DNA from: a virus | Direction: 5' to 3' (one strand) | IMG/VR virus record: IMGVR_UViG_3300028192_000006 | Span: 1-46,707 of that record | Length of the DNA: 46,707 nucleotides | Shown: piece by piece, positions 13,964 to 39,165 of the stretch | Layout of the letters: each line of letters begins with the position of its first letter | How positions within the stretch are numbered: the stretch's first letter is position 1 | The notes under the pieces: model-generated | What the model was told of the DNA's origin: nothing | The model's input: the letters and a program-made list of their open reading frames with translations, nothing else | Database searches by the model: none | Translations under genes and position numbers: made by a program

Positions 13964-14353
13964 ATGGCATATTCAGACCAAGTTTTAGATCATTATAATA
14001 ATCCACGCAATGTGGGTAAGATGGATATAACTGACCCGAATGTCGGGACTGGTATGGTAGGTGCTCCTGCTTGTGGCGACGTTATGAAGCTACAAATTAA
14101 AGTTAAAGATGACATTATTGAAGATGCAAAATTCAAAGCATACGGATGTGGAAGTGCGATTGCTAGTTCTAGCATGGTTACAGAGTTGCTCAAAGGTATG
14201 TCATTAGACGAGGCAAAAAATATTAAGAATACTTCTATTGTAGAAGCTCTTAGTTTGCCACCAGTTAAGATACACTGCTCAGTCTTAGCTGAAGATTCAA
14301 TTAAAGCAGCAGTAAAAGATTATCAAAATAAACAACCAAAGGAACATAGATGA
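13964..14353 (+). CDS. iscU: IscU-type Fe-S cluster scaffold
   Basis: 129 residues, the length of bacterial IscU. The three cluster cysteines are present: PACGDVMKLQ (C37, with D39), GCGSAIASSS (C62) and KIHCSVLAEDSIKAA (about C104). The LPPVK chaperone-binding motif for HscA is intact. AAGGAG precedes the ATG, and AATAAATA at 13944-13951 may be a late promoter. It would take sulfur from host IscS and assemble [2Fe-2S] clusters. An A-type carrier at 37781 suggests the phage boosts cluster supply late in infection. The IscU call is secure; the role is inferred. Confidence 0.95.
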   Translation: MAYSDQVLDHYNNPRNVGKMDITDPNVGTGMVGAPACGDVMKLQIKVKDDIIEDAKFKAYGCGSAIASSSMVTELLKGMSLDEAKNIKNTSIVEALSLPPVKIHCSVLAEDSIKAAVKDYQNKQPKEHR

Positions 14354-34703: not shown

Positions 34704-37004
34704 ATGACAACTGGACTTGTAACAAAGCGTAGTGGTGATACTGAACTATTTAATATTAATAAAATCCACCGCGTTCTTGACTGGGCTTGTAATGATTTAG
34801 TAGGTGTCTCTGTTTCTGAAATAGAAATGAGAGCCAATGTTCAAATATATGAAAAAATGGATTCAATTAAAATCCATGATCTTCTTATCAAATCCTCATC
34901 TGAACTCATAACTGAAAATACACCTAACTATCAATTTGTAGCAGCAAGGCTTATTAATTATAAGCTTAAGAAGTTAGTATATGGTGATAAAAACCCTTGG
35001 CCTCTTATTGATATTATAAATCATAATATTGAGGCTGGTGTATATGACTCAGATATATTAAATAAGTATTCAGAAGCTGAAATAGATTATATAAACAATT
35101 ATATAGTTAATCATTCTAGAGATGATGACTTCACATACGCTGGTATGGAACAAATGAGGTCAAAATATTTAGTACAAAATAGGTCAGATGGAACACTATA
35201 TGAAACACCACAAGTGCTTTATATAATGATTGCCATGACATTATTTGGACGATACAATGGTAGACGCATGAAGTTTATAAGAGAATTTTATAATGCTATA
35301 AGCCAGTTTTATATATCATTACCCACGCCAATCATGGCTGGTTGCCGAACTCCAACAAGACAATTTTCATCTTGTGTAGTACTTGAATCTAATGATTCAT
35401 TAAATTCTATTAATGCTACTGCAACATCAATTGTTTCATATATATCAAAAAAGGCTGGTTTAGGAATTAATGCTGGTAAAATTAGAGCAGTAGGTGCTAA
35501 TATTGGTGATGGTTCTATTGTACATACTGGATTAATACCATTCCTTAAATATTTCCAATCTGCAGTAAAATCTTGTAGTCAAGGTGGAGTACGTGGAGGT
35601 GCTGCAACAGTCTATTTACCTGTATGGCATTATGAATTTGAGGATTTAGTAGTATTAAAGAATAATAGAGGTACAGAAGAGACTCGTATACGTAATATGG
35701 ACTATGCCTTTCAATTTAATAAGCTTATGTATGAGAGATTATTAGAAGGTGGTAAGATAACATTCTTTAGTCCAGACGATGTTCCTGGATTATATGATGC
35801 ATTCTTTGAAGACCAAGATTTATTTAAAGAATTATATGAAAAATATGAAAGAGCATATTCAGTTAGAAAAAAATCTATGTCAGCCTTAGAAGTATTCTCT
35901 CAATTCTTAACAGAACGCAAAGAGACAGGCCGAATATATCTACAAAATGTAGACCATGCAAATACACATGGTGCATTTATAGAGAAGCAAGCGCCGATTC
36001 ATCAAAGTAATTTATGTTGTGAAATTGATTTACCTTCACATGGGTTAGAATCATATGACGATACAAATAAAGGTGAAATATCTTTATGTACATTAAGTGC
36101 AATTAACTGGGGATTAATAAATGACCCATCTCAATTTGAACATTATTGTGATTTAGCTGTACGTGCTTTAGACTCTTTATTAGATTATCAAAATTATCCT
36201 ATTGTTGCAGCACAAAGGTCAACAATAAATAGGAGACCATTAGGTGTTGGTATCATTAACCTTGCATATTTCCTAGCTAAGAGAGGTCTTAAATATAATG
36301 ATGAAGCCTTAGAAACTGTTGATGAATATGCAGAAGCTTGGTCATATTATCTAATTAAAGCCTCAGCAAATTTAGCAGAAGAGCAAGGATGTTGCTATAA
36401 AAACATGGAGACCAAATATGGTCACGGGATACTGCCGATAGACACTTATAAAAAAGAGGTTAATGAACTAATCAAACATAAAGAAAGAATGCCTTGGAAG
36501 CAGTTGAGAGTGCAGCTTAAGAAAAAAGGTATACGAAATTCCACTTTAATGGCCATTATGCCAGCTGAAACATCAGCTCAAATTGGTAATGCTACAAATG
36601 GTGTAGAACCACCAAGGGCTTTAGTGTCATATAAACAATCAAAAGATGGTATAATGGCACAAGTTGTACCACAAATATATAACCTAAAAAATAAATATGA
36701 TCTATTATGGGACCAAAATGGACCAGAAGGTTATTTAAAAATTATGGCTGTTTTGCAGAAATATGTTGACCAAGGAATATCTGTAAATACATCATATAAT
36801 CCAGCTCAATATGATGACAATAAAGTTCCAATGTCTGAAATGATGAAGGATTTAATTACATTTTATAAATATGGTGGTAAACAATTATACTATTTTAATA
36901 CAAATGATTTAACAATTGAAGATGAATCAACTGAAGATTTATCGAGAAAAGACTTTAATACACAGCAAGAATATGATGATTATTGTGAATCTTGTACCCT
37001 TTAG
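34704..37004 (+). CDS. nrdA: NrdA, class Ia ribonucleotide reductase large subunit
   Basis: 766 residues (T4 NrdA 754). An ATP-cone-like N-terminus (INKIHRVLDWA) is present. FSSCVVLESNDS holds the first redox cysteine, SNLCCE gives N436, C438 and E440 of the active site, and the C-terminus DDYCESCTL carries the mobile CxxC. It reduces NDPs to dNDPs with NrdB, supplying the phage DNA. GGAG is at good spacing. A sigma70-type promoter follows its stop. Confidence 0.96.
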   Translation: MTTGLVTKRSGDTELFNINKIHRVLDWACNDLVGVSVSEIEMRANVQIYEKMDSIKIHDLLIKSSSELITENTPNYQFVAARLINYKLKKLVYGDKNPWPLIDIINHNIEAGVYDSDILNKYSEAEIDYINNYIVNHSRDDDFTYAGMEQMRSKYLVQNRSDGTLYETPQVLYIMIAMTLFGRYNGRRMKFIREFYNAISQFYISLPTPIMAGCRTPTRQFSSCVVLESNDSLNSINATATSIVSYISKKAGLGINAGKIRAVGANIGDGSIVHTGLIPFLKYFQSAVKSCSQGGVRGGAATVYLPVWHYEFEDLVVLKNNRGTEETRIRNMDYAFQFNKLMYERLLEGGKITFFSPDDVPGLYDAFFEDQDLFKELYEKYERAYSVRKKSMSALEVFSQFLTERKETGRIYLQNVDHANTHGAFIEKQAPIHQSNLCCEIDLPSHGLESYDDTNKGEISLCTLSAINWGLINDPSQFEHYCDLAVRALDSLLDYQNYPIVAAQRSTINRRPLGVGIINLAYFLAKRGLKYNDEALETVDEYAEAWSYYLIKASANLAEEQGCCYKNMETKYGHGILPIDTYKKEVNELIKHKERMPWKQLRVQLKKKGIRNSTLMAIMPAETSAQIGNATNGVEPPRALVSYKQSKDGIMAQVVPQIYNLKNKYDLLWDQNGPEGYLKIMAVLQKYVDQGISVNTSYNPAQYDDNKVPMSEMMKDLITFYKYGGKQLYYFNTNDLTIEDESTEDLSRKDFNTQQEYDDYCESCTL

Positions 37005-37007
37005 CTG

Positions 37008-37036
37008 TTTACATTTGCCATAAACTATGGTATAAT
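37008..37036 (+). promoter_or_regulatory. Sigma70-type promoter after nrdA, predicted leaderless
   Basis: TTTACA (37008-37013), 17-bp spacer ending TATGG, TATAAT (37031-37036), preceded by TAGCTG. Seven nt (ATATAAT) separate it from ATG 37044. It overlaps the nrdA stop region and leads to the small membrane gene and possibly the tmRNA. Confidence 0.85.
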
Positions 37037-37101: not shown

Positions 37102-37242
37102 CATTTCATAATTGGTCAATCGACACGTAGAAAAAATATATATATAATAACATGAGAATTTTTTATACCGCAACACGGGTATGAAAATGATACACCTTCG
37201 AAATAAGGCTAAACTATTTTTTAAAACGACATAGGAGAATAT

Positions 37243-37470
37243 ATGTTAGATAAAATCACAAGCGGCGTAGCAGCTGCAACGGCTATTGGTATTTCACTAA
37301 TTAGCTTGGCTATCGTTTTACAGGTAGTCTTTGGCGGTAGTGTACCTTTCCTTGGCGGTGACGTCATTGGTACTATTATCGGCATAGTTCATCAGCTAGG
37401 AGACGCTGGTCTAGTGGGATTAATTGCTGCAGGAATTCTGTGGAAATTACTTTCATCTGATGATGCATAA
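37243..37470 (+). CDS. Small two-helix membrane protein
   Basis: 75 residues with two Gly/Ala/Ile-rich membrane segments (about residues 10-30 and 38-68), LISLAIVLQVVFGG and GLVGLIAAGILWKLL, and an acidic C-terminal SSDDA. GGAG is 7 nt before the ATG. Size and topology would suit a holin, antiholin or a small virion membrane component, but no lysis gene lies beside it. The late-promoter-like CATAAATA overlaps its stop codon. Confidence 0.8.
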   Translation: MLDKITSGVAAATAIGISLISLAIVLQVVFGGSVPFLGGDVIGTIIGIVHQLGDAGLVGLIAAGILWKLLSSDDA

Positions 37471-37473: not shown

Positions 37474-37487
37474 ACATTCATTCAAAA

Positions 37488-37727
37488 ATGAAGTGAGTTA
37501 TATAAAAACGACGTAAAGGTAAAAGTAGGAGCACTTAACACGTGGGTTCAATTCCCGCCTCCTCCACCAAATGGTATTATGTAGTACCATTTAGTGGGGG
37601 AGACCTAGGCTTCGATTAGGTAGCAGATCCGCTTGAGACTCGTCAGTCAACGAAGACTTTAAAATGAAAAATTTAATCGGCAAAAACGATTATCTGTTAG
37701 CTGCATAATAGCTAACTGAGGTTTTCT
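37488..37727 (+). ncRNA. ssrA: Permuted (two-piece) tmRNA, ssrA
   Basis: The acceptor piece comes first: T-arm GTGGG (37542-37546), 7-nt loop, CCCGC (37554-37558), acceptor strand CTCCTCC (37559-37565), A, and encoded CCA (37567-37569). A 26-nt spacer has the hairpin AATGGTA/TACCATT. The coding piece begins GGGGGAG (37596-37602), which pairs with CTCCTCC; its third pair is G-U, the alanine identity element. D-arm GACCTAGGCTTCGATT follows. P2 pairs TTAGGT (37616-37621) with ACTTAA (37533-37538). The tag frame is GGC AAA AAC GAT TAT CTG TTA GCT GCA TAA TAG (37679-37711): GKNDYLLAA. The stop codons sit in the loop of P5, GTTAGC/GCTAAC (37696-37716). It would rescue stalled ribosomes and tag products for proteolysis. 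The outer ends are approximate; the resume codon is inferred. Confidence 0.93.
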
Positions 37728-37765
37728 CCGGAGTTCCTTATCACCAAATACTCCGGTCCTTTTTT
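37728..37765 (+). terminator. Intrinsic terminator after tmRNA
   Basis: CCGGAGT (37728-37734) and ACTCCGG (37750-37756) form a 7-bp GC-rich stem with a 15-nt loop, followed by TCCTTTTTT. It is the clearest intrinsic terminator in the window, directly after the tag hairpin. Confidence 0.88.
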
Positions 37766-37780
37766 AATATACATATTGCT

Positions 37781-38092
37781 ATGATAAACTTAACCGACCT
37801 TGCTGTTGAAAAATTAGAAAAACTTCTACCGGGAAAGTTAATGCTTAGAGTATTAGTTAAGACCACAGGTTGTTCAGGCCTAGCCTACCATTTAGAGTAT
37901 TCCCTTTATAAAAATATTAATGACATTAAAGAAATGGTCAAAGGTATTCCTGTTGTTATTGACCCTAAATCATATGCATATGTTGATGGATGTGAGATAG
38001 ACTATAAATACGAAGGTCTTAATGAAGGATTTGAATTTTATAATCCAAAAGAAAAAGCCAGGTGTGGCTGTGGAGAAAGCTTTACGGTATGA
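37781..38092 (+). CDS. IscA/HesB-type iron-sulfur carrier
   Basis: 103 residues with the three conserved cysteines of A-type carriers: TTGCSGLAY (C31) and CGCGESF (C95, C97). A-type proteins (IscA, ErpA, SufA) take clusters from IscU and deliver them to targets. The gene lies directly before nrdB (4-bp overlap), and a phage IscU is at 13964. Phage NrdB uses a diiron-oxo centre, so iron delivery is a tempting link, but cluster transfer to a host or phage Fe-S enzyme is the ordinary role. No Shine-Dalgarno is obvious; only 15 nt follow the terminator. Confidence 0.9.
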   Translation: MINLTDLAVEKLEKLLPGKLMLRVLVKTTGCSGLAYHLEYSLYKNINDIKEMVKGIPVVIDPKSYAYVDGCEIDYKYEGLNEGFEFYNPKEKARCGCGESFTV

Positions 38093-39165
38093 AAAAAAGT
38101 GTATTTGAGATAAACACTAAACACCATTTAGAGAAAGATTTATTTTTTGATGAAGGTGTTGATATAGCACGATATGATGTGGTTAAATACCCAGCCTTAC
38201 AAAAGTTATATGAGAAAATGTTATCTTTTTATTGGACACCAGATGAGATTGATGTCACAAAAGACAAAATTGATTTTGGTAAATTAACAGAAAATGAAGA
38301 ACATATATTTACAGCAAATCTTAAGAGACAAATTCTTTTAGATAGTGTACAAGGTCGTAGTCCTGACTTAGCATTATTACCATTAGCAAGTAATCCAGAA
38401 TTAGAATTATGTATAGAAACATGGGCATTCTTTGAGACCATTCATTCACGGTCTTATACTCACTTAATCAGAAATGTTTATCCTAATCCATCTAAAGTAT
38501 TTGATGAGATTAAGTCTATTCCAGAAATATTAGATTGCGCAAAAGATATATCTGTACATTATGATAACCTAATTAATTGGAAAGGACCATACGGCAATTA
38601 TAAACATAAAAAATTATTATACTTATGCATGATTTCTATATATATGTTAGAAGGTATAAGATTCTATGCGAGTTTTGCATGCTCATGGGCATTCGCAGAA
38701 TTAAAACAAATGGAAGGAAATGCAAAAATTATTAAATTAATAGCAAGGGATGAGAATTTACACCTCGCAGCAAGCCTTAATATAATTAGAGCTCTTATTA
38801 AAGATGATAAAGATTTTGTAAAAATTAAAGAAGAAACACATGACGAAGTAATGAAAATGTTTGATAGATGCTTAAAGCAAGAAGAGGAATGGTGTGATTA
38901 TCTATTTGGTAATGGTTCAATGATTGGTTTAAATGGTGAGCTCCTTAAAGAATATGTAAGGTGGATATCAGCAAAAAGAATTAAGAGTCTTGGTTATCAT
39001 GTTCCATTCACAGTACACCAACATAACCCATTACCTTGGACAGAGAAATGGATTAGTGGTGGAGCAGTTCAAGTAGCTCCACAAGAAACAGAAATAACGT
39101 CATATGTTTTAGGTGGCGTTAAACAAGATGTTAATAAGAAATCATTCGAGGGATTAAGTTTATGA
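38089..39165 (+). CDS. nrdB: NrdB, class Ia ribonucleotide reductase small subunit
   Basis: 358 residues from ATG 38089 (ATGA overlap); T4 NrdB has 388. LLDSVQGRSPDLALLPL provides the first metal ligand Asp, AFFETIHSRSYTHL supplies the Glu, His and radical Tyr, EGIRFYASFACS and ARDENLHLA the other ligands. All diiron and radical residues expected of E. coli NrdB are there, so it is an active tyrosyl-radical protein. It pairs with NrdA 1 kb upstream; the tmRNA and IscA lie in between. Confidence 0.96.
   Translation: MKKSVFEINTKHHLEKDLFFDEGVDIARYDVVKYPALQKLYEKMLSFYWTPDEIDVTKDKIDFGKLTENEEHIFTANLKRQILLDSVQGRSPDLALLPLASNPELELCIETWAFFETIHSRSYTHLIRNVYPNPSKVFDEIKSIPEILDCAKDISVHYDNLINWKGPYGNYKHKKLLYLCMISIYMLEGIRFYASFACSWAFAELKQMEGNAKIIKLIARDENLHLAASLNIIRALIKDDKDFVKIKEETHDEVMKMFDRCLKQEEEWCDYLFGNGSMIGLNGELLKEYVRWISAKRIKSLGYHVPFTVHQHNPLPWTEKWISGGAVQVAPQETEITSYVLGGVKQDVNKKSFEGLSL

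Follow-up and report, generated by a model that had tools for sequence, protein, structure and literature searches.

Does a marine phage possess a complete transfer-messenger RNA (tmRNA) of its own in which the acceptor end is encoded ahead of the coding end, and if so, what kind of tmRNA is it and what might it do for the phage? This question is raised by the IMG/VR virus record IMGVR_UViG_3300028192_000006, a 46.7-kb ocean-virus fragment (46,707 nt) that we analysed over its whole length and refer to below as the window. An earlier note made from the letters of this DNA had claimed a circularly permuted, two-piece tmRNA gene at 37488-37765.

A scan of the window with the Rfam models returned a single match above a curated cut-off, namely to RF04321 (tmRNA_permuted) at 37509-37708 on the + strand, with 67.4 bits (E 5.9e-11) against a gathering cut-off of 47 bits. 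The alignment is full-length and has the acceptor (3') piece encoded ahead of the coding (5') piece. Independently, ARAGORN called a permuted tmRNA at 37477-37799, with a tag of GKNDYLLAA and a double stop behind it, and it reported no tRNA gene or other tRNA-like gene across the 46.7-kb window. Both programs place the gene where the earlier note had put it, confirming the observation of a phage permuted tmRNA in the window. The parts it had listed are likewise present (acceptor piece with CCA, T-arm, spacer hairpin, GGGGGAG pairing, G-U third pair, P2, tag, stops in the P5 loop and terminator-like stem), except that its "matching D-arm" lacks a proper D-stem and is just the usual tmRNA D-loop region. 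The claim that the phage bears a complete permuted tmRNA, equipped with a tag and a terminator of its own, is thus supported. Together with the comparisons below, these results make it very likely that the gene specifies a working, phage-owned, two-piece permuted tmRNA of a canonical-T-loop, betaproteobacteria-like type, vertically inherited in an uncultured T4-like marine phage lineage.

Structural conservation of the tmRNA and its tag

We assessed covariation in an alignment of 17 distinct orthologous sequences against a hand-written structure of 53 base pairs (Table 1). In this alignment 98.6% of the cells are paired, versus 93.7% in shuffles; two-sided changes are seen at 12 of the 53 pairs with every helix kept, and the covariation score of 0.186 was reached by none of 500 shuffles, with slid partner columns giving 0.008-0.058. 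The 7-bp acceptor stem with its G-U third pair and CCA end is invariant in the 17 sequences, covariation is found in both the T-arm and the long P2 helix, and the tag frame has a degradation-signal end with its stops in the loop of the P5 hairpin. The predicted site at which translation resumes (UUAAUC-GGC) lies between a 4-bp hairpin and the tag. The spacer separating the two pieces is the least conserved stretch besides the P5 loop.

The tags of the orthologues comprise GKNDYLLAA, GNNDYLLAA, GNQNDYLLAA, GNQSDYLLAA, GNQSDYALAA, GNQIDYALAA, GNDSVYALAA and GNQSVYALAA. All of them end in [LA]LAA, the window tag keeping the usual LAA end; their lengths differ by exactly three bases (3-nt indels), and the other changes are mostly at silent positions. 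An example of a peptide for detection in marine metaproteomes is KLFCPHCGKPYIYDGGD.

Downstream of the coding piece, the terminator-like stem-loop is conserved in all relatives, but it was not listed by a simple terminator scan because its 15-nt loop is too long for that scan. This loop (37735-37749, TCCTTATCACCAAAT) is 92% conserved, far above the spacer, and therefore may have a role beyond termination.

Affinity of the window tmRNA

Among the clade-specific Rfam models, the window tmRNA scores best with beta_tmRNA (RF01850), to which it aligns end to end with 66.5 bits, versus 26.1 bits with alpha_tmRNA (RF01849); the curated cut-offs are 84 and 50 bits, respectively. The orthologues behave similarly, with 58-89 bits for the beta model and 30.6-38.3 bits for the alpha model, and one syntenic orthologue (L115) reaches 88.9 bits with the former, above its cut-off. 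Conversely, the tmRNAs of the phages Melnitz, HTVC008M and Mosig score 107, 84 and 68 bits with the alpha model versus 25, 56 and 51 bits with the beta model. The T-loop of the window tmRNA is the canonical UUCAAUU (UUCAANU across its group), in contrast to the alphaproteobacterial genes compared, whose loop is of the GGTA type. The link to alphaproteobacteria and SAR11 suggested by the earlier note is supported neither by the scores nor by the T-loop. Because the window's score is below the beta cut-off, we call its tmRNA beta-like, by analogy with the betaproteobacterial subtype and not as a member of it. In a tmRNA tree the window group forms one clade (support 0.999); this tree was not used for questions of origin, as isolates and nearly all bacterial rows are missing from it.

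Genomic context and distribution

A strict T-arm/acceptor signature scan of IMG/VR recovered 26 contigs. In all 26 a small membrane-protein open reading frame (ORF) lies 5' of the tmRNA, and wherever the contigs extend far enough the gene order is nrdA upstream, the tmRNA, and then iscA-nrdB-glutaredoxin. The small hydrophobic protein has no match in Pfam, PHROG or isolate phages. Using this ORF as the query we found 80 loci, 77 of them long enough to judge; the tmRNA is present in 64 and undetected in 13, where the figure of 64 is the union of two counts, since the strict pattern missed variant T-loops and the second count missed others. Therefore, the tmRNA is usual, not universal, in the clade. 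In four relatives (L280, L281, L287 and L288) the small ORF is retained at 93% identity with no tmRNA and with a different terminator after the ORF, which suggests loss or absence of the tmRNA in these phages.

In a 140-kb relative (G002), the approximately 134 kb that were read contain no tRNA gene; therefore, the tmRNA does not belong to a tRNA array. A search of ten phage records, comprising six virus records of the window clade and four isolate phages, found no gene for SmpB, with the same search being positive in 10 of 14 control genomes; hence the phage tmRNA presumably relies on the SmpB of the host. The T-arm/acceptor DNA signature has no exact match among 84,980 bacterial and archaeal species genomes, in which a looser signature found just distant or tRNA-like matches and the permuted tmRNAs of some alphaproteobacteria. 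When the tmRNA was compared with isolate phages at the nucleotide level, the matches were tRNA T-arm fragments only. Separately, the window encodes two iron-sulfur (Fe-S) assembly proteins, an IscU/NifU-like scaffold at 13964-14353 and the IscA-like carrier at 37781-38092 beside nrdB.

Table 1. Features of the tmRNA locus and its neighbours in the window
Feature	Position	Strand	Observations
nrdA, ribonucleotide reductase large subunit	34704..37004	+	Pfam PF02867; order conserved
Sigma-70 type promoter, TTTACA-17-TATAAT, extended -10 (TG)	37008..37036	+	11/12 consensus matches; ~200 nt 5' of small ORF
Leader element: CCTTCGAAATAAGG hairpin, then CTAAACTA..CGACATAGGAG with ribosome binding site	37195..37242	+	48 nt; hardly varies among the 16 distinct relatives
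Small hydrophobic protein gene, 75 amino acids (aa), upstream partner of tmRNA	37243..37470	+	In all 26 strict-match contigs; highly conserved in clade
tmRNA acceptor piece: P2 5' strands, T-arm, acceptor 3' strand, encoded CCA (37567-37569)	37509..37569	+	RF04321 match; 95% mean pairwise identity in 17 orthologues
T-arm, GUGGG-UUCAAUU-CCCGC	37542..37558	+	Second pair covaries U-G / U-A / C-G
Acceptor stem 3' strand, CUCCUCC, then ACCA	37559..37565	+	7/7 positions pair with 37596-37602, G-U third pair included
Spacer between the two pieces, AAUGGUA hairpin	37570..37595	+	26 nt; 56% mean identity; two-sided changes at 4/7 pairs
Spacer hairpin	37570-37591	+	
Acceptor stem 5' strand, GGGGGAG, start of coding piece	37596..37602	+	RF04321 match; invariant
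P2 3' strands (UUAGGU, UCC, CUU, CGUC)	37616..37644	+	Compensatory AAG/CUU, AGG/CCU, GGG/CCC; C-G to A-U (top of P2)
Short hairpin 3' of P2, AGUC-AACGAA-GACU, 4 bp	37645..37658	+	U-A to C-G covariation in 5 sequences
Tag frame, GGC AAA AAC GAT TAT CTG TTA GCT GCA TAA TAG = GKNDYLLAA and two stops	37679..37711 (codons without stops 37679-37705)	+	ARAGORN; frame kept in 17 sequences
P5 hairpin, GUUAGCU/AGCUAAC, 7 bp, tandem stops in loop	37696..37716	+	Two-sided changes at 3/7 pairs, including G-C/A-U and U-A/C-G
Terminator-like hairpin, CCGGAGU...ACUCCGG and T-run, loop UUCCUUAUCACC	37728..37766	+	Stem and loop 92-100% identical in 17 orthologues
iscA-like Fe-S carrier, downstream neighbour	37781..38092	+	Pfam PF01521; order conserved
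nrdB, ribonucleotide reductase small subunit	38089..39165	+	Pfam PF00268

Transcription of the locus

A counterpart of the sigma-70 type promoter listed in Table 1, of the form T[GT]TACA-17-TATnnTATAAT, is found at the equivalent place in most relatives. The earlier note had suggested that the tmRNA is transcribed late from CATAAATA at 37466. This octamer is indeed present there, and T4-like late promoters occur in phages of this type; however, it contains the TAA stop codon of the preceding small ORF, and it is absent from most relatives, which have CATAACA or TTAATAA instead (GCATAACATTC or GCTTAATAAC). Neither CATAAATA (6 occurrences versus 7.6 expected) nor the other late-promoter octamer, TATAAATA, is enriched in the window. 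Late transcription from CATAAATA at this site is accordingly very unlikely, and from the DNA the sigma-70 promoter at 37008-37036 appears the likelier promoter of the small ORF and tmRNA unit. Late expression of the unit as a whole is conceivable because several relatives have TATAAATA upstream of the small ORF.

Between this promoter and the small ORF, the leader element (CCTTCGAAATAAGGCTAAACTA...CGACATAGGAG) stands out against the DNA just 5' of it, which is not alignable among the relatives, and it looks like a regulatory RNA or a protein-binding site. The simplest reading of the locus would be a single transcription unit made up of the promoter, the leader, the small membrane-protein ORF, the tmRNA and the terminator.

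Protein genes within the tmRNA spacer of related phages

In five contigs with the gene order of the window (L293, L327, L331, L338 and L361; a sixth, L332/L451, matches too), the spacer between the two tmRNA pieces is 133 nt long, versus 26 nt in the window, and encodes a 50-aa zinc-ribbon-like protein, MKEIIWHFSCK.C.GWWSIAV.D.W.PKKLFCPHCGKPY.YDGGD.ASI(R/K). The entries L425 and L442, in which the same ORF is seen, duplicate two of these contigs. The last codons and the stop of the ORF lie inside the tmRNA coding piece, and therefore cutting of the precursor would sever the mRNA before its stop codon. A 74% identical protein is encoded by a free-standing gene after iscA in a contig with an ordinary spacer (L259), and further homologues are found in other phages (L493-L496).

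Scans in which the spacer length was set to 120-150 nt and to nearby values yielded further cases, and we collected 110 distinct spacers that measure 80 nt or more and precede a tmRNA-like coding start. An ATG-initiated ORF covers at least 75% of the spacer in 37 of these, versus 9.2 expected from shuffles. For the five best spacer-ORF clusters, the ratio of nonsynonymous to synonymous polymorphism (pN/pS) in the ATG frame is 0.18, 0.12, 0.34, 0.49 and 0.21 (the last two from three sequences each), versus 0.73-2.0 in the other frames where computable; judged from these sequences, the spacer genes of the relatives are under purifying selection. The tmRNAs around the long spacers were confirmed by Rfam in nine examples (65-144 bits), and the neighbours in most of the long-spacer contigs tested are phage genes (PhoH, a PDDEXK-type exonuclease and endolysin). 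The spacer proteins fall into several families, zinc-ribbon-like proteins and small membrane proteins among them (other groups: L421, L428, L463, L454, L468, L605 and L570). Even the cultivated phage Melnitz EXVC044M (L122:6076-6270) has a spacer of about 143 nt with a 54-aa ORF, MFKWLSKTRLVVITRDYFRERNRKADAKIPKYLSGTRSVYDGGELGSTGRNRKV, where the annotation of the record lists no gene. In 32 bacterial permuted tmRNAs the spacer measures 4-74 nt (median 31), with the caveat that selection by score biased this set towards short spacers.

It is probable that the spacer of phage permuted tmRNAs serves as a slot for small protein genes, filled by unrelated proteins in different groups, such that one transcript could act either as tmRNA precursor or as mRNA, linking the two. 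In the literature searched we found no description of a protein gene in a tmRNA spacer, and these genes are the part of the analysis that is unexpected to a specialist. If expressed, they would represent a new arrangement, in which a protein gene sits within the portion of a structured RNA that is cut out and shares bases with that RNA.

Proposed function and alternative explanations

We strongly infer a two-piece mature form and a role in ribosome rescue. In the proposed course of events, the small membrane-protein gene and the tmRNA would be co-transcribed from the sigma-70-like promoter at 37008, with transcription ending at the 37728 terminator. RNase P of the host would then cut 5' of GGGGGAG, and host nucleases would trim after the CCA and remove the spacer, with the two pieces being held together by the acceptor stem and P2. 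The RNA would be charged by the host alanyl-tRNA synthetase (G-U third pair) and, with host SmpB, would enter ribosomes stalled on broken mRNA, where A-GKNDYLLAA would be added, the ribosome freed and the fragment marked for host ClpXP-type proteases. More cautiously, the benefit to the phage would probably be that ribosomes stay available at a time when the infection leads to cutting of host and phage mRNAs. The tag may, as the earlier note suggested, also redirect proteolysis; its end is the usual LAA.

The same tagging activity could instead have as its main purpose the breakdown of host proteins or the recycling of amino acids in the early phase of infection, an idea published for Melnitz (PMC9004378) and in keeping with the early-type promoter at the window locus. 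We regard this as unlikely, given that a tmRNA targets stalled ribosomes and not chosen finished proteins, and that the window tag retains the generic LAA end only. That no SmpB gene was found in the ten phage records searched would also suit a competitor or decoy RNA, which occupies host SmpB, EF-Tu or ribosomes and thereby blunts host trans-translation; however, a tag with an LAA end would be superfluous in a decoy, and the conservation of the tag frame, the stops and P5 under selection renders such a role highly improbable. As tmRNA genes are common integration sites (PMC9004378, PMC11915505), the gene might further be viewed as a functionless leftover or attachment (att)-site copy of a host tmRNA resulting from imprecise prophage excision. 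Against this, the gene is whole, there is no integrase among the window proteins examined, the same place between phage genes is occupied in 26 contigs with covariation and constraint on the tag, and the T-arm/acceptor signature has no exact counterpart in the species genomes searched, so that this explanation deserves almost no credence. A prophage att-site remnant was accordingly rejected as a classification of the locus, where the gene is complete and the order of the surrounding phage genes is conserved.

We thus favour the working, beta-like phage tmRNA, against which several points need to be set. The betaproteobacterial subtype is an analogy, as 66.5 bits falls short of the beta cut-off of 84, and the label rests on the Rfam models and the canonical T-loop. 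As a weak hint to the host, the IscA of the window resembles gamma/beta-type IscA on plasmid-collection records. No tmRNA is detectable 3' of the small ORF in 13 of the 77 judged loci, and it is thus dispensable in some relatives. Finally, we infer the processing, two-piece state, charging and tagging from tmRNA biology.

The case suggests that the permuted tmRNA was taken up by phages at least twice from different-looking stocks, once as the alpha type (Melnitz, HTVC008M and Mosig) and once as the beta-like type of the window. The structure and the tag have been kept under selection, with SmpB left to the host as far as searched, which speaks for ribosome rescue being a function that repays its cost to AT-rich marine phages of the T4-like type.

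Comparison with known phage tmRNAs

The earlier note could not say how many phage tmRNAs are permuted. Rarity is not supported: two-piece tmRNAs have been described in phage genomes (53) and in related contigs (17 in 47 contigs) (PMC9004378), and many more were found here. The tmRNA of Melnitz, together with a glutamine riboswitch, was reported in 2022 and its function discussed (PMC9004378), and a 2025 study listed 79 phage tmRNA sequences and introduced RF04321 (PMC11915505). Melnitz (a Methylophilales phage) and the Pelagibacter phages HTVC008M and Mosig (Kyanoviridae) resemble the window in being T4-like marine phages that have a permuted tmRNA with a short tag ending in ALAA and no phage SmpB. 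The SAR11 phages HTVC008M (L126, NC_020484 at 145161) and Mosig (L185, MT647606 at 111558) have alpha-type permuted tmRNAs with the tags ANFNEYALAA and GEDNFALAA, respectively.

The tmRNAs of Melnitz, HTVC008M and Mosig are of the alpha_tmRNA type (67.6-106.7 bits, cut-off 50), whereas that of the window is beta-like, and the major capsid proteins of the window and this group are about 52% identical. In Melnitz the tmRNA follows a PDDEXK nuclease and is accompanied by a glutamine riboswitch; that of the window lies in the nrdA-iscA-nrdB region, and an Rfam search found no such riboswitch near it. With RF04321 the window tmRNA scores 67 bits, versus 155-167 for the best alphaproteobacterial genes, and is hence a diverged member of this family. 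The beta model RF01850 has a sigma-70 promoter directly before the gene, which is absent at the window, and the window tag begins with Gly instead of Ala. The one-piece phage tmRNAs and the tmRNA without coding sequence of mycobacteriophage DS6A (PMC11915505) are phage ribosome-rescue RNA genes like that of the window but are not permuted, and the DS6A tmRNA lacks the tag frame that the window tmRNA possesses. The window clade was not found in the texts of the literature searched, a search that left supplementary tables uncovered. Thus, the phage permuted tmRNA is, as a kind, already known, and this case adds to it a beta-like subtype, a constant position within the nrd/isc region and the phage clade in which it occurs.
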